Positions 5,081 to 64,000 of a stretch of 64,000 bases of DNA are shown here, piece by piece. Made by a program: the position numbers and the translations under genes. The stretch comes from Geosiphon pyriformis (lineage: Eukaryota; Glomeromycota; Glomeromycetes; Archaeosporales; Geosiphonaceae): positions 441,622 to 505,621 of the forward strand of contig JAAOMT010000706.1 in the NCBI GenBank assembly GCA_016748015.1, given 5' to 3'. Under the pieces are notes generated by a model, which was given only the letters and a program-made list of their open reading frames with translations, did not search any database and was not told where the DNA came from. Position 1 is the first letter of the stretch. Every line of letters begins with the position of its first letter.

Positions 5081-5812
5081 ATGGGATCTAGACTTAATTG
5101 GCGTGCAAAAGGAGATTTTAAGTACGCGATTTCAATTTATTTTCCGCGCCTTAATGTTCCAATTTTCTATATTTAAAACTCGAAAAGGCTTACTCAAATT
5201 TCGGGTTGCTCAATGCTTGCATACCGCTTTTTTTGTCGGTTGGCACAACGGCAAGGTCATTTCAAGATACAAATGTTTCCTAAGCATGACTAAGATCTTT
5301 AGACAGGTATTTTAAATGAAAATTTTAATTTTGAGATGTATTCTACTTGAAAATAAAAATAAAAAAAAAAGAGAAATAGACCTATGAAAAATGGGAATTG
5401 ATTTTTCAAAAATTTTAATTTCCCTCTTCCTAACACCAAAACAAAGATCTGGGTTCACGATCGAAGAGATTTGCTACTTTTTGAGAAATTCTGACCAAAT
5501 GATATTCACCAAAGTCAATTCTTTAAAGGACATTCATGGGAGACCTTACAATGTAACTCTAGTAATTATTGTCACCAATGAGAAAGATTTTCGGCAATCC
5601 TTTAGTGAAGTGCACAGGCCACAAGATTTTCCTGTAAAAATCGAAGTGGATCAATCTTAATAGGAGATAAAACTGCCAACTAGATGTACCACAAAGCTTT
5701 TTGGCCAGCTGAATATAAAAGAAGAGTCTTTTCTTGTTCAGGAGAGGATGCGAGAACGCCAGGAGAAACTTTTCCTGCAATTCGTATAACTAATTACCAG
5801 CTTGTGAAATAA
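5081..5812 (+). CDS. Hypothetical four-exon gene, unrecognised family
   Basis: My model joins exons 5081-5155, 5188-5255, 5447-5633 and 5684-5812 into 152 residues from MGSRLNWRAK to TNYQLVK. The phases agree at each join (0, 2, 0). The last intron (50 nt, GT to CTAG) and the second (191 nt, with a CTAAC branch-like element and CAAAG acceptor) look good. The first is only 32 nt with an unusual GTTCCA donor and is the weakest point. No domain is recognised; the third exon has a hydrophobic strand (VTLVIIVTN) suggesting a globular fold. The gene ends about 100 bases before the BTB gene on the same strand. It could also be a decaying pseudogene, in which case the first two exons are frame-broken remnants. 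Confidence 0.4.
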
Positions 5813-5909
5813 AAAGTCAAAACTTTTAGATGCGGAGAAACTTTATTTAGTATCTTGTACATACATTATTCATGCACATCCTTTAGCTCGTTTAAAATTT
5901 TTTAAAAAA

Positions 5910-7340
5910 ATGCCTAAAGGGAGCTCACTCTCAAAAGATTTGGGCTTCGTCTTTAATAATCCTCGCTACAGCGACGTTCGTATAGTATGTGATCAGAATG
6001 AAGTACTTTTCGGTAGTCGAACAATTTTGGCAGCTCGTTCTGAAACATTCGACAGCATTTTATATGGGGTAAAGATTGCAGAAAGCTGTCTTCCATTCGA
6101 AATCTCCTTTCCAGACATGAAAGCTTCAGCGATGGAAGTGGTCCTCGAGTTTATTTACACTGGAAGTATGAGAGAAGAGTCGATTGAAAATCCTCTCGAC
6201 GCAATTGATGTATTTTATGCTGCAGAATATTTCCTTCTCCCAGATCTTCAAGATTGCGTTCTTAAGTATATAAAAGAATGGTTAAAAGAAAATGACCACA
6301 ATTTAGCAATTGAACTTTTAGAAAAAACCACCCAAAAAATCATTTCAACGTCCTCAGAAAACAAACTTCTAAATCTCTTGACTTCCCATATTGCTGCAAC
6401 ACCTTTAGAAGCTTTCGAGTTCGAATGTCTCACATTGACCAATCTACAAGTTTTGCTTTTGCACACTCTTAATAGTGAAACATACTTTGCTACTTCTGAA
6501 TACGATGTTTTGCGGTATATAATTTTTTGGGGAGCGAGCCAAATTTGCGAAGAAGCCATTTCCTTCTTTGAATCTAGATTACCTTTGTCAGAAATAGCGG
6601 AACAACAATCAATCCCTCTAACTATCGAATTCATTCATAATCCCCATGAACTCAATAAATTTTACGAATATCAAGCAGCAGTTATAAATATTGTCGCACC
6701 AATCCTTCGATATATTAATTTCGCCCTAATCGCACCCAATGTTCTTGCCAATGTCATTCACCCACTTGGAATTATCTCCACCCCAGTTCTTCTTGAAGCT
6801 TATCGATATCACGCAGGTTTTAAAAATAAGTCGAAAAATAGAAGAGGGGGTATTTCTTGCAGAATCGATGATCTTCGCTGGGATAACATGGCTTGTGGGC
6901 CAAACATTGAAATCCGTGATTATGGGACGCGAGTTCTTTGTACAAATAGCACGACCGTAGAATCAGTTCGTGGTGTTAATCTTTTATGGGGTAATGGGAT
7001 GTACGAGTGGGACGTAATTGTTGAAGAAAAGAGTAGGTGTGCCTGGATTGGTGTTTGTACTGAAAATGTTAATTTCTCTTCATATTTGGGTCGACAAGAA
7101 AATATCTATGTTTTTGGTTCTGATGGTCAAATTTGGAATTCTGGAAAGTCGCACCGTTATGCTAAACCATTTACTAAAGGAGCAACTATTACTGTGCATT
7201 TGGATATGACAAAAAGAACTTGTGCATTCTCGATCGACGGTGTTCGATATCCAGTGGCTTGGACGGATTTACCCGAAAAATTGTACCCTGCAGCCGCCAT
7301 TTGGAAATTCGGTAGACTACGAATCAAGCCTCATACTTGA
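5910..7340 (+). CDS. BTB/POZ - BACK-like - SPRY protein
   Basis: This single-exon gene encodes 476 residues. Residues about 12-125 form a BTB/POZ domain, with the typical SDVRIVC strand, the ILAARSETFDSILYG helix pair and the VLEFIYTGS core. A helical BACK-like stretch follows from about 128. Residues about 315-470 resemble an SPRY/B30.2 domain, with GNGMYEWDVIV, AWIGVC, YVFGSDGQIWNSGK and TCAFSIDGVRYPVAW. BTB proteins of this kind usually bind cullin-3 as substrate adaptors, with the C-terminal domain choosing the target; this role is family knowledge, not shown here. The start is the first ATG after an in-frame break and fits the usual BTB N-terminus. There is no intron and no sign of decay. 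It converges with the F-box gene downstream. Confidence 0.88.
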   Translation: MPKGSSLSKDLGFVFNNPRYSDVRIVCDQNEVLFGSRTILAARSETFDSILYGVKIAESCLPFEISFPDMKASAMEVVLEFIYTGSMREESIENPLDAIDVFYAAEYFLLPDLQDCVLKYIKEWLKENDHNLAIELLEKTTQKIISTSSENKLLNLLTSHIAATPLEAFEFECLTLTNLQVLLLHTLNSETYFATSEYDVLRYIIFWGASQICEEAISFFESRLPLSEIAEQQSIPLTIEFIHNPHELNKFYEYQAAVINIVAPILRYINFALIAPNVLANVIHPLGIISTPVLLEAYRYHAGFKNKSKNRRGGISCRIDDLRWDNMACGPNIEIRDYGTRVLCTNSTTVESVRGVNLLWGNGMYEWDVIVEEKSRCAWIGVCTENVNFSSYLGRQENIYVFGSDGQIWNSGKSHRYAKPFTKGATITVHLDMTKRTCAFSIDGVRYPVAWTDLPEKLYPAAAIWKFGRLRIKPHT

Positions 7341-10253: not shown

Positions 10254-10414
10254 TTATATTTATATTTATATTTATTTATTTTACAGTATTTTTATGGTTT
10301 AATTTATGTGAGACACATTATAGTTGGTTTTGTGTAAAATTTAAATTGATTAGCTAATATGGTATGCATTAAAAAATTATTTAAAGTTAAGTTTTTTTTT
10401 TTTTTTTTTTTTAA
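8936..10414. other. Intergenic region with a possible kinase relic and simple repeats
   Basis: No complete gene is visible. It holds a short kinase-like reading at 9143-9202, a CACATATA-type microsatellite at about 9815-9870, a (GAAATT)n tract at about 10128-10152, an (AT)n tract at about 10218-10245 and a poly-T run up to the N gap. Confidence 0.5.
9143..9202 (+). pseudogene. Possible protein-kinase glycine-loop fragment
   Basis: The frame reads TLLEKRSFGIVYQFKNLEVQ, which resembles the nucleotide-binding loop region of protein kinases (xGSFGIVYxA). The first loop glycine is replaced by Arg. A GT donor follows directly at 9203. No catalytic loop or other kinase segment was found nearby, so this is at best a fragment and may be chance. 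Confidence 0.25.
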
Positions 10415-11106
10415 NNNNNNNNNNNNNNNNNNNNNNNNNNNNNNNNNNNNNNNNNNNNNNNNNNNNNNNNNNNNNNNNNNNNNNNNNNNNNNNNNNNNNN
10501 NNNNNNNNNNNNNNNNNNNNNNNNNNNNNNNNNNNNNNNNNNNNNNNNNNNNNNNNNNNNNNNNNNNNNNNNNNNNNNNNNNNNNNNNNNNNNNNNNNNN
10601 NNNNNNNNNNNNNNNNNNNNNNNNNNNNNNNNNNNNNNNNNNNNNNNNNNNNNNNNNNNNNNNNNNNNNNNNNNNNNNNNNNNNNNNNNNNNNNNNNNNN
10701 NNNNNNNNNNNNNNNNNNNNNNNNNNNNNNNNNNNNNNNNNNNNNNNNNNNNNNNNNNNNNNNNNNNNNNNNNNNNNNNNNNNNNNNNNNNNNNNNNNNN
10801 NNNNNNNNNNNNNNNNNNNNNNNNNNNNNNNNNNNNNNNNNNNNNNNNNNNNNNNNNNNNNNNNNNNNNNNNNNNNNNNNNNNNNNNNNNNNNNNNNNNN
10901 NNNNNNNNNNNNNNNNNNNNNNNNNNNNNNNNNNNNNNNNNNNNNNNNNNNNNNNNNNNNNNNNNNNNNNNNNNNNNNNNNNNNNNNNNNNNNNNNNNNN
11001 NNNNNNNNNNNNNNNNNNNNNNNNNNNNNNNNNNNNNNNNNNNNNNNNNNNNNNNNNNNNNNNNNNNNNNNNNNNNNNNNNNNNNNNNNNNNNNNNNNNN
11101 NNNNNN
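10415..11106. other. Assembly gap (N run)
   Basis: Unknown bases fill this interval. It is flanked on the left by poly-T and on the right by poly-A with sparse G, so the missing sequence is probably low-complexity or a repeat the assembler could not cross. The frame that appears to span it is an artefact of the N run. Confidence 0.99.
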
Positions 11107-11107
11107 C

Positions 11108-11138
<31 letters not shown>

Positions 11139-23422: not shown

Positions 23423-24346
23423 ATGAATGGCGAGACCCCAAATTCTCGACAAACTCGAAGTCGGCAGCGTGCTAATGACCTTGGACCGCAAATACCGATA
23501 CAAATCCCTCCTCAGGCCATGCAACCAACCGAGTGGATTCCTGATGTTCGTGACAAATTTGAAGCGGTAGGTTCTCGAATAAAGGATTTTCTTTTGGAAT
23601 ATTTTTTTGATGATAAGAAACGACCATAAATCTTTCAAATAATTTTAACCTATATATCCAAGTTGGGGAAATCGTGCTATGAAGTAGCAATTGCCTTGGG
23701 TAAATTCAAAGATGCTATCGACAATATTCAAGGGGGTAATTTATTCAATTTAGAAAATGCATTGTAAGTTTAAAGGTTCTAAAGATTTTTGCATCGAATC
23801 CATCTAAACTCTCATTTAAACTTTCTTTACGAAAATATTAGTCTCTCACTACCCTTTTCCATGCCACCGCCGGTACAAATCAGTAATCACACGATACCGT
23901 TAGCTCCCCCACCACCTGCGCCACCTGTCGTTACTCCACAACCGTTTGCAAATTTCTCTACACCTAGATCTCGTCATGCAAGATCAACTCCATCAAGCAT
24001 CGCTTCCTCGAGAAATTCGTCGCCCACCCCTTATGCATATACCCCCAGTAGACCCAACGCCATAGTTCATGGCTTACATGGGCAAGAATGGAGTGATGAT
24101 TCTAGGCGTAAATTAAACGATCGATTTATTAAATACTTTAAACGCCGTGAAGAAGGCGAAGAAATTACAAACAAAATTGTTTCCGAGGAATTACTCGGCT
24201 TTGCAAAGGCTACACCATCTGTCAAGCATTTGGACCGTCAAGTTGGTCGTTATCTACGCCGTCATACTATTCCTGTTGATCCTGTTGTTTTAGAAGCAAT
24301 TGAAAGTTGGATTGAAAATGAAAAGGTTGTGCGAGGAAAATTCTAG
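23423..24346 (+). CDS. Unrecognised fungal protein, member A of a convergent paralogue pair
   Basis: Exons 23423-23566, 23663-23763 and 23842-24346 (phases 0 and 2) give 249 residues from MNGETPNSRQ to VVRGKF. Intron positions and phases are identical to those of the minus-strand paralogue at 28507-29493, which confirms the model. Three parts are seen: a basic N-terminus ending in a WxxxVxxKFEAVG-like helix; a short helical exon 2 with GNLFNL; then a Pro/Ser-rich linker and a C-terminal helical domain of about 90 residues (HGLHGQEWSDDSRRKLNDRF, a KYF/KYY motif, GRYLRRHTIPVDP, IESWI). The Trp/Arg-rich helices could bind DNA or protein, but I do not recognise the fold. No signal peptide or membrane segment is present. 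Confidence 0.7.
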
Positions 24347-28506: not shown

Positions 28507-29493
28507 TTACGTTTCACTCCTGGCCGTCTTCTCAGACAAGATCCAATTCTCAATTGCTTGCAAGATAATTGGATTCACGGGAACACTGGTTCGCCTTAAA
28601 TAATCCCCGATACGCTTAGTGAGATGGGTCATCTGTGGTGGAGTCTCCCCACACATAATGAGTAACTCGTCAGAAATAATTTTATAGGGAACTCGTTCAC
28701 CAACACATCGAAGTTGATAATATTTGACAAATTCATCATTAAGGACTGTACGATCTTCCTCGGTCCAAAATTTACCATTCATACCTTGAATGGTGCGTGT
28801 TGGACGTTTGGGAGAGTTTGGATTTGGACTTGACAATTGAGAATGCTCTGGCGATAGATCTGATCCCGATACGGAGGAGTTTAGGAAATTATTGCATTCC
28901 ATCTTTCCTCCTTCTGCTTCTACGTCTTGCATCTTTTGGTCCTCTTGATTTGATAGCACGTTTTCATTTTCTAGTTGTGCTTGAGTTGATGTTTGATGTG
29001 GTTGAAAAGTATTTGATAGTTCTGAAGCAAATGTGGCTATATTACCGCTAAAATCGTAAAAGCTAAATGAATACTTTTAGTTCAACTCTATCATAGGAAA
29101 ATTAACTGAATAAAGAAGAAATTTTCTCACAAAATATCAGGATTTACAAGATTAAAAAGATTCCCATCAATTTTATATAGTGCCTGCTGAAACGTCTCCA
29201 AACTCTTTGATACCTCAAAACTGGCTTGTCCCAGCTATTTAGATAGAATTAATTTTCAAGTCAATTTTTAAAACATGATAATTAAAATTTTGATACCCTA
29301 CCGCCTCAAATTTCCGTTGTACTTCGTGAACCCAATCTCCTGGTTGTGGTAGATTCATAATCGTATTTCTTGGATGAAAATCGAATCTGGGGGATGGAAC
29401 TGGTGGTGGTGGGGGTGGCGGTGGTACCATTGGTGGATGCCTTAATTGAGTTCTATGAATATTTCCCAAACGTGAATGACCGTTCATAGTCAT
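28507..29493 (-). CDS. Unrecognised fungal protein, member B of a convergent paralogue pair
   Basis: Exons 29302-29493, 29131-29234 and 28507-29047 (phases 0 and 2) give 278 residues. The alternative start at 29487 aligns exactly with the MNG start of the plus-strand paralogue and gives 276. The N-terminus has a run of nine Pro (VPPPPPPPPVPSP), followed by the conserved VxxxxRKFEAVG-like helix at the first splice site. Exon 2 ends with GNLFNLVN, close to the paralogue. Exon 3 carries a Ser/Asn/Pro-rich linker and the shared C-terminal domain of about 90 residues (GMNGKFWTEEDRTVLNDEFV, KYYQLRC, GDYLRRTSVPVNP, IENWI). The poly-Pro run could bind SH3, WW or profilin-type partners. The pair points tail to tail, with the Sel1-like gene between. 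Confidence 0.7.
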
Positions 29494-36853: not shown

Positions 36854-39800
36854 ATGGTAATTTACTAATTTTTGACTGTTGTGAATCAGTTGCAGTTAGC
36901 ATTATTGTAAAAATGCTGACAATTTTGTTGGCTTTTCTAAACTTCAGTATCTATCTTCAAATCCGAGAACAGAAGACTTTTCAAATAGCCATGAAGCGGG
37001 TAAATTTTGGGCTCTTGTGAATACATTAATTAAATTTGTATCTAAAACTCTTGAACAATTTCAAAGAAGGACGTGAAGAAATGTTTGACGAGTCTGACGA
37101 CGAGTTTGACGATGATTTAAGTGAATCTGAGAAAAATTCTCTTACTCTCACAGAATTTTTTAATCTAACCTTTGGAACGAAGCCTTTGAAGTTTGATTCC
37201 ACTCATTTTGTTTGCGAAGAATTGGACATTTCAAAGTTTCATCAACTTGTTACACCAATGCTTGAAACTGGTGAACAGGGAATTCTACGCAACCTTTTCC
37301 CACACTTAATCGATCTTCTCAGCCGAACAGTGAGTTTTGAAAAGATTGCTACTTGCATCCAGGAAATTCTCAAGAGCGACTCAAACCAGAGCCTAAGAAA
37401 ATTAGAAACCTGCAAAGGCCGTGATTATCTTGTTGCGTTTCTTGATTATGTCCCTGATCAGTCTTTGCCAAAAATGCTCGGTACACTTGTATCTTCTAAC
37501 ATACCTGTCCCTCTCCTTTTGACAAAGGAGCATCAGTACTATGAGAAAGGTCTGAGAGTACTATCTGCTCTACGCGATGTAGTAATTGAAAAGGAATACT
37601 GCCTTTTACTGTTTATGAACTTGACAACATCCCAACTGGAGAATCCTTTTTCCAAGCAGCTTTATCCTGCCTTGTGCAAGAATCGTGAAAAATTCACAGG
37701 AATTACGTTTCCTGGTTCAATTGATATTACCTTCCATCCAGCATCAGAAAATAAGCTTCGCCGGCCTATAGCTATTGCTGAAGCATATAACCACGAACTC
37801 ATATCTGATCCATTCCAAAGTATTCTTCAAAACCTATCGAAAGAGGCATTCTTAATTATCTTGCATGCCACTGATATTGATTTTACTGGAAGTGAACCAC
37901 TCAAAGAGCTTGGAGAGCAAATTGCATTAATTGCTAGAAGCTTGGATGGGAAATTTGGCAAAAAGATTTTAATTCTTTACATGGATTCGAAATCACAACC
38001 AATCGCTTTTCGCCGTAAAATGTTCAAACAGCGAAAGCAATCACTAGAGGCATTGTTCCATCTTCATAATAATGAACATAATGTTCCCTCTGAGTTTCAC
38101 ATGAAGGTCATTTCAACTGAAAAAATGGAACAAAATCTGGAAGATATTAAAAGAGATATTTTGGTCCAGTTGCCCCCTGAAAATCAGCAACGCATGTATC
38201 CTCCTCTTGGTATCAGGCTGCCTTCTAGAGAGGTGCTAATTGTCTGGTCCGACATAAGTGATGATACTTTCACCAGATCAATGATGCAACTCGGTTTTCA
38301 GACCGGTGTAAATGGTTTTCGCCGCGCTCAAATATTCCCGGCATCTAATTATGAACGGGAAATTGAAAATCTTAAAGATAAACGACGTTTAAGCTCCGAT
38401 AAATATTCCAATTACATTTCGGATGAAGAAATTGATCAAAATGTCAAGAAATTTAATTTGGAAAAGACGCGTATTGGAGATTCTCCTCAAATCTCTGTTC
38501 TTGAGCTCTTTTCTCGAGCTATAATCAACAATAATTTCATCGAGATGAAGAATTTTGCTCGAGATATTGACAGTGTATTTAAAACTCATTTACAAATGCT
38601 TTCGTTACAAGAAAGTAGATCTACACAAAATCCAAACGACATAACGCGGGAACAACTCAAACAACAAATTGAGGATAACGATATTTCGATACATGATTTT
38701 TGGAGAGAATTTGTGATTCTCTCGACAACCAGATACACTCGTGATCTAACTGTTTTGGAAAAACTATATGGAGTGAAACCAAGGTTGGATAAAACTGCTT
38801 CAATCTTTTTTTCACTAATTTAGAAAGCTAAAACTATTTGATATTGTAACCAGCCATCTTCAAAATGCTTATAAAACATGGGTTAATGAAGGCGAAGCAA
38901 TGCAAATGTTGGATGGTTTATCACTACGCGCCCTCGATCCATCATTTTTATCGGATGTTCTTTCCTCTTTGATGTCCGATTCTAATCGAAAGTTGATTGT
39001 TATTTCTGTCATTGGTCTTGAAAGTTCCGGAAAATCGACCCTCTTAAATTATTTATTTAAATGTGGATTTTCCACGTCTGCAGGCCGATGGTAACAGATT
39101 AAATCATTCGTGATTTTTTTATAAAGGTCGCGTTGTCCATAAAGTTAAACTTAATCGCATTTATATGTATTGATTATCTTTTTAGCACTAAAGGAATGTA
39201 TATGTCCTATCGCCACTCGGATTTCAATGGAATTCCCTTTGATCTGCTTATTCTTGACTCTGAAGGAATGAGCTCTACAGCACAAAAGTATATCACCAGA
39301 AGAAGCAGTTTTGATAAAAAGATCACCCTACTAGCTCTCATGTGCTCCCAAATTGTCATCATCAATACAAAGGGGTTGACTAAAGATATTTCAAATATTC
39401 TTGAAGTATCTTCTTATCATTTAGATGCCTTGAGTAAGCGCAAATCTAAGCCACGATTACATTTTGTTTTACGCGACATGATGGACTCTAATAAAGCACA
39501 AAAGCCAGCATTCGATGATATTCGCGAAAGTCTTGAACAAATGTTCCGCGAATTGCCTGGATGCACCCAAGATTTGAATGATTTCATGACTATTTCTGAG
39601 GAAGATGTCCATCTACTGGTTAATGCATTCACTTCTTTCAATGATGATCTAAGACCCAAAGTAATGAACATGTCGGAGACCGAGCACATTCATCTGCCAG
39701 CTGTGAGCAAATCTCTGTTGTTTCATTTTTTCTTTTTCAATTGAATTGAGCATTTGAAAGGATCTAAATTTAATTTCGTCAGTTAACATATTTTTAGGAA

Positions 39801-42240
39801 TCATTTCCTTTAATTGTTTCGAATTTACGAAAGTCACTTATTTCCTCAGCGCTTAATCATATTGATACGAGGCTTTTTGAAAATGTTCATGGTAAATGGG
39901 CTGATTGTTAAACTTCTATCTGTTTATTGCTTTAACTAAAGATGTTATTTTTTTTCTTAGGATTTATAATCCATATGAAAGCAGTGTGGGAAACCATTGA
40001 CGCAGAAGAAAGCTTTTTGCATTTCGAGAATTTTAAAACAATACAAAAGTGGAATCTGATGCAGAGCTTTGTTGAAGCACAACGAATTGCTTTCCTTAAG
40101 CCTTTCAAAAAAGAGGCAAAAGAAAAAATGGAGGAAAAAATCGATAAACTGAGATTGAATCCAACTGGCTATATTGAGATCAACGAAGAATATAAAAAGT
40201 TTCTTAGGCTTTCTTCAGACAAATTCGCTAAGGCTGCGGTTGATAATTTTTTTCAAAAAGTAGGAATTCAAATTGATGATATCATAAAGGATGAAGGCAA
40301 AACTCTCATTTGTGGTATGTTTGTGACGGAGAAACTAGAGCTTGAAGCAAAATGGCGTGAAAAAGAACTTTCCTTTCAAGAAAAGGCTCTATTAAATGAT
40401 GCAGAAAAGAACTTCAAAGAAACTATTCGGCGATATAATACACTTGATGAAGCAGCAAAACTAAAAACTGATCAAGAAAGGTCTCAAAAATTGTTCAATG
40501 ATGCATGGCACGATGTGGAAACTTTCCACAAGACTTCTATGGAAAATATGGTACTCAACGAAGTTCAGCTGCAGGAGCGTGTGGTTGATTCTTTCAATAA
40601 GGCTATACAACGTGGTCAAAGCAATGTTAAAATACATGAACTGAAATCCAGAATGCAGTTTGACCGAAAATTCTGGATGAAGTTGGAGAGGCCTGCGGCG
40701 TTACAAAAATACTTGAATGCTGATCTTCAGGAGGTTCTTGAAAATATTGAATTGAAGAGCAATAATTACTTTACAAAAATCAAGAAAAAATTGTGGCTTA
40801 CTGAAAAGGCAAAACAAAATTTGAAAAACAAAGCTGCAACGGCTATTCTTGAACATATTTCTCTTCTATGCGCAACAATTTGCAGCCAAATCTCCCATCA
40901 AAAGATCTTGAGAAACGAGTATGATGAAACTTTTCAATGGCTTCAAAAGTTTTCAGACGATTTATTTCTTTTTATGAGTAATCAATTCAATGATCCAAAT
41001 GCCGAATTTTTTCCTGAGCTAAATGATTTTAACATGATTGAGGTAGGCTATTGAACTTAATGGATTGTTTTTAACCCTTGGAGAATATTAATAAATCAAA
41101 TTATCTTACCAGAAATTTTATCGATGGCAAATCTATTCTACTTTGCAAAAGAATAATGCTCAATGGCTTGAGAACCAGGAGGGGAATTTAAAAAAATACA
41201 AAACTGAACTTGAAACAACTTTTAGAGAACTTGTGGCAAATAACTCTTCTTTTCAATCTCTCTCTAAAAACTTCTCAAAACACATCATCAATCGATTCGA
41301 GAAAACGCTTATTACCCTCGAAAAAAGCGTTCAAAATGATGTTGAGGAATATATCAAAGGTTGGGTTACTAAATATGGAGCCACTAACGAAGCACACGAA
41401 CGCAGTTTTGGCAAGCGTGATCTAAAGGCAGCACGCTGGTATATAAATGATTTGAGTGGATATTTAAGGCATGTTTTCGATGAAGAGTCCAAAAAGCGTC
41501 TTGAAGATATTAAAGAGAAAAAAGTTAAAAACATCATGGAAAAGATTGAAGAAACCCAATCTTCTCTTATGTCCCTTATTGATAAAGATTGGAGTCGAAG
41601 CTTTTCAGAAACTCTTGAAGATATTATTTCCAAACACGAGGGTTCCTCTCACTCAAAGAATGTCCATCAGTATGTAGAAAACTTCTCCTTCGCTGGTTAT
41701 TGTCGGGTAGATAGATCATCGCCAATCTGGGATGCACTCAAGCGAGATCTAGCCAAAGAATTTAAGGAATTAGAAGGAAATTGGGAAGGAGAAATAAATT
41801 CTCGCCTTCAAGCTCTCATTACAAGTACAATTAACATAAACTGGAGTAAAATAGGAGGCTGTACAGCAAGTTGTCCTATTTGCAAAGCAAAATGTGAACT
41901 TCCCGAAGGTGATCATACTCATGAAACTTCAACACACATCTTGGCTGCTTTCGGTGGATGTAATGACGTGAATACTCATGAGGCGGTTTTAATTGTTTGT
42001 TCTGAGGTAGATGCGCGTGATAAAGGAAAATGGCGGAGTCGTTTTGTGACATCCTTTGTTACAATCAATGAATTAATGCAAGCAAATCAGCCAAAATGGA
42101 AACCGCTATCATTTGGTCAAGTCCAAGAAGAAAAAGCAAGAAATATGAAACATATTTGGTGGCATTTGAGAAAAGAGTTATGTGAAAAATATGATATGAT
42201 AGACTCAACCCCAAATGATTGGGAGAGATATGCTCGGTAG
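36854..42240 (+). CDS. VLIG-type very large GTPase (GB1/RHD3-related), eight exons
   Basis: Exons 36854-36856, 36948-36999, 37079-38783, 38824-39090, 39186-39702, 39798-39891, 39961-41042 and 41113-42240 join to about 1615 residues. All phases agree. The first coding exon is only the ATG; the paralogue at 63312 shows the same layout. Residues 1-560 are an acidic leader and a helical region like the N-terminus of VLIG/URGCP proteins. The G domain follows: P-loop GLESSGKST (651-659), the splice-restored SAGRCTKGMYM, the DSEG switch motif (700-703) and a GBP-like RD (772-773). A long coiled-coil, Lys/Glu-rich stalk runs from about 860 to 1430. A CPIC-x3-C plus His cluster starts at 1494, as in the VLIG C-terminal metal site. 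Animal relatives are interferon-induced; the role here is unknown. An AG at 37066 would add four residues. Confidence 0.82.
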
Positions 42241-62247: not shown

Positions 62248-62712
62248 TAAAATATAAAGTAATTTATGGGAAACAAATGTTTTATTTTTTAAATATAAAG
62301 TAATTTATGAGAAACAAAAGTTTTATTTTTTAAAATATAAAGTAATTTATGAGAAACAAAATTTCTATTTTTTAAAATATAAAGTAATTTATGAGAAACA
62401 AATGTTTTATTTTTAAAAATGTAAAGTAATTTATGAGAAACAAAATTTCTATTTTTTAAAATATAAAGTAATTTATGGGAAACAAAATTTCTATTTTTTA
62501 AAATATAAAGTAATTTATGAGAAACAAAAGTTTTATTTTTTAAAATATAAAGTAATTTATGAGAAACAAAATTTCTATTTTTTAAAATATAAAGTAATTT
62601 ATGAGAAACAAAAGTTTTATTTTTAAAAATATAAAGTAATTTATGAGAAACAAAAGTTTTATTTTTTAAAATATAAAGTAATTTATGAGAAACAAAATTT
62701 CTATTTTTAAAA
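62248..62712. repeat. 42-bp tandem repeat array, 11 copies
   Basis: The unit contains AATATAAAGTAATTTATGAG, then AAACAAAA and a T-rich end. Copies start near 62251, 62292, 62334, 62376, 62418, 62460, 62502, 62544, 62586, 62629 and 62670. Two subtypes differ in the segment after AAACAAA (AGTTTTATT versus ATTTCTATT) and partly alternate, which suggests growth by two-unit duplications. It encodes nothing. Confidence 0.93.
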
Positions 62713-63229
62713 TAATTATCTTAATATAAAATGAAAATAAAAAATCATCATTATTTTGATATATTCTTATTTTTAAATTTTATTAAAACTTTTAAAAATA
62801 AGCCCTACCTCATTATTTTGATAATTTAATAATTATCAGATAAATATGGAATTTTTATCTTGATAAATTTTTTCTGCTTTTAAATTTTTTCAAAATTAAT
62901 TTATCATAATTTTAATAAACCATAGTTACAATTAGGAATAAAAATATAACTAAAATCCAATACTCAATAACAGGGGTATTAAACAAATAAACTAAAAAAA
63001 TTATCTCAAGCTTTAATTCGCAAACCGGATGGTTAATATTAGCAAAACAGCTTTCCAAAAAACATATTAATTATGGTTCAGAAAATTCATTGATCAAACC
63101 ATTGATTTATTTTAAAAAAGTTAAATTAGAGTAAGCGCTTTTTATCAAATAAGTGCGCACCAACTTTCATAAATATGATCTAACTCTTGATTATTTCACT
63201 TGAAAAAATTTATTTATTATAGTGTTTGC
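62713..63229. other. Intergenic region upstream of the second VLIG-type gene
   Basis: A/T-rich sequence without a gene. Confidence 0.5.
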
Positions 63230-63311: not shown

Positions 63312-64000
63312 ATGGTAGGTTGCTGAATTTGAATGTTGTGAATTGAAATTACTGCTGAATTCATTGGCTTTTCTCAATTTTCCTAAACTTTAGCCCATAT
63401 ATCCAAATTCGAATGAAGAGCACTCGTCAAATAGCCGTAAAGAGGGTAAATTTTAGTCTTCTGTGAATATATTCAAATTTGAAATTTAAAACTCACTTGA
63501 AAAATTTCAAACACGGATTTGAAGAAATTTTTGACGACGAGTTTAATGATGATTTTAGCGATGATAAGGAAACCTCTCTTACTTTCATGGAATTTTCTAA
63601 TCTAACTTTTGGGACAAAGCCTTTGAAATTTGACCCCACTGATTTCGTTTGCGAAGAATTGGATATTGCAAATTTTGTTCAACTTGTTACACCAATGCTT
63701 GAAACTGGTGAACAGGGAATTCTACGCAACCTTTTCCCACACTTAATTGACCTTCTTAACCGAACAGTCACTTTTGAGAAGATCCCTACCTGTATCCAAG
63801 AAATTCTCAAAATTAATTCGAACCCAACCCTTAAAAAATTAGAAACCTGTAAAGGTCGTGATTATCTCGTGGTGTTTCTTGATCATATTCCTGATCAGTC
63901 TTTGCCAAAAATGCTCGGTACACTTGTATCTTCCAATATACCTGTCCCTCTCCTTTTGACAAAGGAATATCAGTGCTATGAGAAAGGTCTCAGAGTACTA
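63312..64000 (+). CDS. Second VLIG-type GTPase gene, 5' part only (runs off the window)
   Basis: Exons 63312-63314, 63394-63445 and 63525 onward follow the same plan as 36854-42240: a 3-nt first coding exon, a 52-nt second exon and phase 1 into exon 3. Intron 2 is 79 nt, as in the first copy. The product starts MPIYPNSNEEH, passes an acidic leader, and continues with MEFSNLTFGTKPLKFD, then CEELDI, close to the first copy. DNA identity rises sharply near 63690-63755, where more than 50 bases are identical. No stop or indel is seen up to position 64000. The G domain lies beyond the window, so GTPase function is inferred from the paralogue. If exon 2 were skipped, the first ATG would be 63587, which would lose the acidic leader. 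Confidence 0.75.

Follow-up and report, generated by a model that had tools for sequence, protein, structure and literature searches.

A predicted giant GTPase with a VLIG/URGCP-type G domain, encoded in a small mosaic gene family of the fungus Geosiphon pyriformis

VLIGs are best known from the interferon-induced immunity of vertebrates and are among the least understood of the interferon-induced GTPases. In SEY1, atlastin and GBP, GTP drives the pairing of G domains and sets a helical part in motion. Rearrangements of this kind have been described for atlastin-1 and BDLP (PMC7815755), VLIG sizes are given in one report as 200-285 kDa (PMC10495984), and another lists two GVIN1 genes as copy-number variable in stickleback (PMC4256280). 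Among the titles and opening lines of abstracts consulted, which cover the literature in part and include Rhizophagus and mycorrhizal contexts, no publication on fungal VLIGs was found; UniProt, we presume, may well hold predicted fungal proteins labelled with a "VLIG-type G domain". Here we describe such a predicted protein, encoded by a gene (copy A) at 36854-42240 of a 64,000-nucleotide window from Geosiphon pyriformis (assembly GCA_016748015.1, contig JAAOMT010000706.1, positions 441,622 to 505,621, forward strand), together with further copies in the same genome, lettered B to F, and a fragment, G. By profile comparison its G domain is of the VLIG/URGCP type.

The span 36854-42240, on the plus strand, fits an eight-exon gene model with seven GT-AG introns and a predicted product of about 1615 residues, built from sequence prediction and comparison of the copies (Table 1; motif numbering follows a 1596-residue version). 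Its six main exons join into a single open frame of 1596 codons across introns of 40, 95, 95, 69 and 70 nucleotides (nt), all GT-AG, and the splicing proposed in a first-pass annotation of this span, which restores GLESSGKST, SAGRC-TKGMYM, DSEG and RD, thus holds in frame. There is no N within the gene, the frame is kept across all 1596 codons and, unlike copies D and E (these three being readable along most of their length), copy A has no in-frame stop. Two additional 5' exons, an ATG micro-exon and one of 52 nt, would join in frame with 37079, as suggested by comparison of the copies: the ATG pattern was detected in four of six (A, B, D and E, but neither C nor F), the donor of exon 2 in five (A-E) and the next acceptor in all six, and the joined 5' frame is open in A and B, the two copies for which it was translated. 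This longer model is favoured because an ATG is absent from B, D and E where A's 1596-codon version begins; it also accords with the start codon at 36854-36856 and with a stop whose last base is 42240. Gene A appears intact and very probably codes for a VLIG-type GTPase.

The spliced protein matches the Pfam model URGCP_GTPase (PF25683, VLIG type) with an expectation value of 2.4e-25 and 89.5 bits, over a cut-off of 55; the match covers residues 427-774 and profile positions 3-342 of 396, and takes in some 200 residues ahead of the P-loop. Unspliced single exons in the genome scan gave 4.7e-8 (gene A) and 1.3e-8 (copy E), neither of which reaches the curated cut-off. The nucleotide-binding motifs are complete, with GLESSGKST at 632, SAGRCTKG at 653 (TKG at 658), DSEG at 681 and LRD at 752-754, bearing out their annotated preservation; the RD motif is one we take to be GBP-like. 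RHD3_GTPase follows at 7.4e-10 and 39.1 bits, under its cut-off of 42.4 and 50 bits below URGCP_GTPase, with MMR_HSR1 and Dynamin_N weaker still, and the GBP G domain PF02263 is not listed for the whole protein at an expectation value of 1; membership of the RHD3 and GBP families was rejected on these grounds. A search of PDB sequences with the G region at an expectation value of 10 returned six sequences in total, SEY1 (9.7e-6), GBP5 (0.0019), GBP1 (0.01 and 0.023), GBP2 (0.013) and GTPase Der (0.068), and the whole protein gave nothing there at 1. The best NCBIfam model, small_GTP, reached 9.1e-5 and 22.3 bits, under its cut-off of 42.5, with four others weaker. The profile check suggested with the annotation thus prefers URGCP_GTPase to RHD3/atlastin and GBP and does not favour an unrelated GTPase family, and the VLIG/URGCP assignment covers the G domain, not the whole protein.

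With VLIG/GVIN and URGCP the fungal protein shares this G domain with its preceding residues over the PF25683 cut-off, a giant size and the presence of several copies; it differs in its fungal host, in its length of about 1615 residues (which corresponds to an approximate mass of 185 kDa, beside the 200-285 kDa given for VLIGs), in the seven introns of its model, and in that no PF25496, the companion URGCP domain, was detected. What had been annotated as a VLIG protein is therefore upheld in its G domain, with no other Pfam domain to extend the claim: outside residues 427-774 no Pfam model reached its cut-off, and the pieces 1-380, 830-1221 and 1222-1596 gave nothing near a cut-off at an expectation value of 10. 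SEY1, RHD3 and atlastin resemble it in a weak G-domain similarity and differ in that their profile falls short and a separate RHD3/SEY1-type gene, with four exon matches over cut-off, lies on contig C291. GBPs share the RD motif and the weak PDB matches to GBP5, GBP1 and GBP2; they differ in the missing PF02263 and in separate GBP-family matches over cut-off elsewhere in the genome (L036, G000:C360:794760-795155, 84.5 bits; L037, C280:35206-35913, 57.1 bits).

Charged regions follow the nucleotide site, and a low-confidence model places helices across the first two thirds of exon 8. Near the C-terminus stand C1471, C1475, C1478, C1482, H1489, H1491 and H1496, residues identical in all five copies that have the region (A-E), amid neighbouring residues that differ; the CPIC-x3-C/His cluster of the annotation is exact for A, and the pattern is CPIC-x3-C also in B and C, with CPTC in D and CPVC in E. 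It is likely a zinc site. A simple hydropathy scan found no strong transmembrane stretch and no hairpin, the best 19-residue value being 1.58 within the G domain and 1.4 outside it.

Comparison of A with E, the only copies whose G domain can be read, indicates that this domain is under strong purifying selection. Over its 170 codons nonsynonymous divergence (dN) is 0.010 and synonymous divergence (dS) 0.299, a dN/dS of 0.034, with 27 silent versus 4 replacement changes (p 1.1e-14 against neutrality). The ratio is 0.25-0.30 ahead of the G domain and just after it, and 0.43-0.49 in the last quarter. Introns are 74.1% identical between the two copies and exons 85.0%, and, judged by eye, all five main-model introns occupy the same places in E. 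What first looked like diversifying selection at the C-terminus was not upheld (p 0.29-0.79 across four pairs).

A whole-genome search yielded at least 23 matching stretches, grouped into at least seven places (gene A, five other copies and one fragment), four of the seven lying within about 98 kb. The annotated second copy some 21 kb further on is present as a 5' part starting at 63312, of which about the first 160 residues fall inside the window, but beyond the window its middle reads as N and its G domain cannot be read; the tandem GTPase family stands as a multi-copy one with neighbours on the same contig, though B and C are recognised from their ends. Runs of N occupy 3749 bases in B and 3367 in C, both in the middle, and 642 in the G domain of D.

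By sequence comparison the copies form a small mosaic gene family. Between A and D, identity is 81-91% over the stretch 37100 to about 38150, rises to 93-100% as far as about 41900 (with an unreadable part of D in between), and is 83, 91 and 79% across the three final 150-base steps. B and C are 81% identical at 37100 and 100% from 37250 until C becomes unreadable, and A and C are 98% identical at 37100. A block-shuffle test was passed by A-D, B-C and B-D (0 of 2000 shuffles each) and weakly by A-C (48 of 2000). Since A-E passed it too (0 of 2000), probably owing to G-domain conservation, the mosaic claim rests on dS, which for A-D is uneven in successive readable parts (0.354, 0.053, 0.016, 0.078 and 0.099) and for A-E even along the gene (0.30-0.47).

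We consider it somewhat probable that gene A encodes a large, soluble, self-assembling dynamin-superfamily GTPase with a VLIG/URGCP-type G domain, and grant the same moderate confidence, by analogy, to GTP-driven self-assembly. By analogy with atlastin, GBP and SEY1, GTP binding would pair the G domains, and hydrolysis would move the helical part as the protein self-assembles; the Cys/His cluster would bind zinc and cap or target the C-terminal part, and the likeliest role, as a guess, would be to coat or remodel a foreign body or a membrane inside the cell. Several observations weigh against this reading. PF25496 is not listed for the whole protein at an expectation value of 1 or, at 10, for the three pieces named above, and this 299-position model has no match in the genome; its absence is not proven thereby, because all 14 of 14 control genomes were silent too. 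Structure prediction, proposed with the annotation, was run on single exons without alignment and gave poor models of low confidence (predicted local distance difference test, pLDDT, 40.8 and 39.0). From residue 1364 onwards no constraint is detectable in A-B, A-C, B-C or A-D (binomial p 0.29-0.79), and A-E shows weak constraint (p 0.02). Sister copies carry in-frame stops, one TAA at codon 571 in E and two TAG near the end of D, which suggests that parts of the gene family may be decaying.

A role in cell-autonomous defence, to which analogy and the multi-copy, mosaic and partly decayed state of the family alone point, is tentative and on balance rather unlikely. Evenly poised, in our judgement, is the alternative that the gene codes for a GTPase of housekeeping or development (a cytoskeletal or vesicle-coat protein, say) and plays no part in defence, its likeness to VLIGs reflecting an old eukaryotic G-domain family that vertebrates recruited to immunity. 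The very strong selective constraint seen in the G domain points that way, as does PADLOC, in which the 415-residue G region (scanned by itself) matched 0 families, and fungi are not known to possess an interferon system; a family that is multi-copy, mosaic and broken in part, with copies sharing a contig, would be unusual for a housekeeping gene. We consider it improbable that fungi have a cell-autonomous defence arm of VLIG-type GTPases against endobacteria, viruses or foreign nuclei, in the shape of a clustered, gene-converting family with a frozen G domain and a variable remainder. If such an arm did exist, VLIG-type immunity would predate animals. A fungal family with a VLIG-type G domain would in any case allow tests outside vertebrates, and bears on whether this G domain was a late recruit to immunity or an old part of defence.

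Either gene conversion (or a recent exchange between copies) or an assembly with collapsed and chimeric copies may lie behind the mosaic. Should the mosaic copies prove real, they would let gene conversion be studied in nature within a family of giant GTPases. That mosaic and N runs alike are assembly products, near-identical copies having been collapsed and A being perhaps a chimera of two real genes, we regard as plausible, if slightly disfavoured. The N runs of B, C and D are shorter than the matching spans of A (about 3981, 4071 and 1488, from coordinates), which fits estimated assembly gaps, and the gap of D falls inside its low-divergence stretch to A; against this reading stand the uninterrupted sequence and frame of A and the intron places it has in common with the complete copy E on another contig. 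As to a divergent SEY1/RHD3 (atlastin-type) GTPase for endoplasmic reticulum (ER) fusion in place of a VLIG-type one, the RHD3_GTPase match and the leading PDB position of SEY1 speak for it, but it is very improbable in view of the 50-bit deficit, the lack of a hairpin in the hydropathy scan and the separate gene on C291, which probably does the ER-fusion job, so that gene A is not needed as an ER fusogen.

The host is a fungus, as had been surmised: its genome (124.7 Mb in 406 contigs; window G+C 27.4%) holds a small-subunit (SSU) rRNA gene at L039:2282-4098 (G000:C320; 1654 bits) with an exact ITS1-F site, which we take to be a fungal primer site. Two arbuscular mycorrhizal primer sites had no exact match, and by eye each shows one mismatch in L039. 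The NS1 site is matched exactly at this locus and nowhere else. The gene differs from near-universal positions, for example in gccacgg of the 530 loop (against the consensus), several of its changes being by eye C-to-T or G-to-A, and may be a decaying or mutated ribosomal DNA copy. A phage, plasmid or viral origin of gene A is unsupported: no relative appeared among viral contigs (four scans), plasmids or phages, PHROGs gave no match better than 0.14, and the genome contigs collection gave none to two short peptide patterns from two close sequences, a probe weak on prokaryotes.

Table 1. Predicted parts of gene A (window positions) and places of the other copies (contig positions unless marked as window)
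Feature	Position	Strand	Remarks
Start codon, own coding micro-exon (inferred)	36854..36856	+	ATAATGGTA; also B, D, E; joins 36948-36999 in frame
Exon 2, 52 nt (inferred)	36948..36999	+	In A-E, an AG acceptor and the donor GTAAATTT occupy matching places
Exon 3	37079..38783	+	N-terminal region without known domain; beginning of URGCP_GTPase match (from residue 427)
Exon 4	38824..39090	+	P-loop GLESSGKST, SAGR
Exon 5	39186..39702	+	G-domain core; CTKGMYM, DSEG, LRD
Exon 6	39798..39891	+	Intron places also in paralogue E (by eye)
Exon 7	39961..41042	+	Charged region, without Pfam match
Exon 8	41113..42240	+	Partly helical in low-confidence model, then Cys4/His3 cluster, C-terminal segment, stop
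Cys4/His3 candidate metal site, codons 1471-1496	41860..41937	+	Same seven Cys/His in A, B, C, D, E
Copy B, 5' part	63312..64000 (window)	+	63312-63314, 63394-63445, 63525 on; runs past window end
Copy B	C327:505151-510065		Window start 63312
Copy C	C327:532758-537212	-
Copy D	C71:33891-38216
Copy E	C146:179359-184523		Complete; separate contig from A
Copy F	C168		Cut by contig end
Fragment G	C327:439050-439651

Elsewhere in the window, a single open frame at 5808-7340 (+) encodes a 510-residue BTB plus SPRY protein, and at about 10410-11110 N letters, of which the window has 692, form a run beside homopolymer stretches. Two open frames on opposite strands, of 187 residues at 23783-24346 (+) and 189 residues at 28507-29076 (-), look related and have in common the pattern G-x-x-W-S/T-D/E-D/E-x-R ... 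KY ... YLRR; Pfam gave nothing for the former and, for the latter, Gly_radical at 0.0013, below cut-off. Shortly before copy B, a minisatellite forms an open frame at 62289-62720 (-) of a repeated unit like NFVSHKLLYILKNK.

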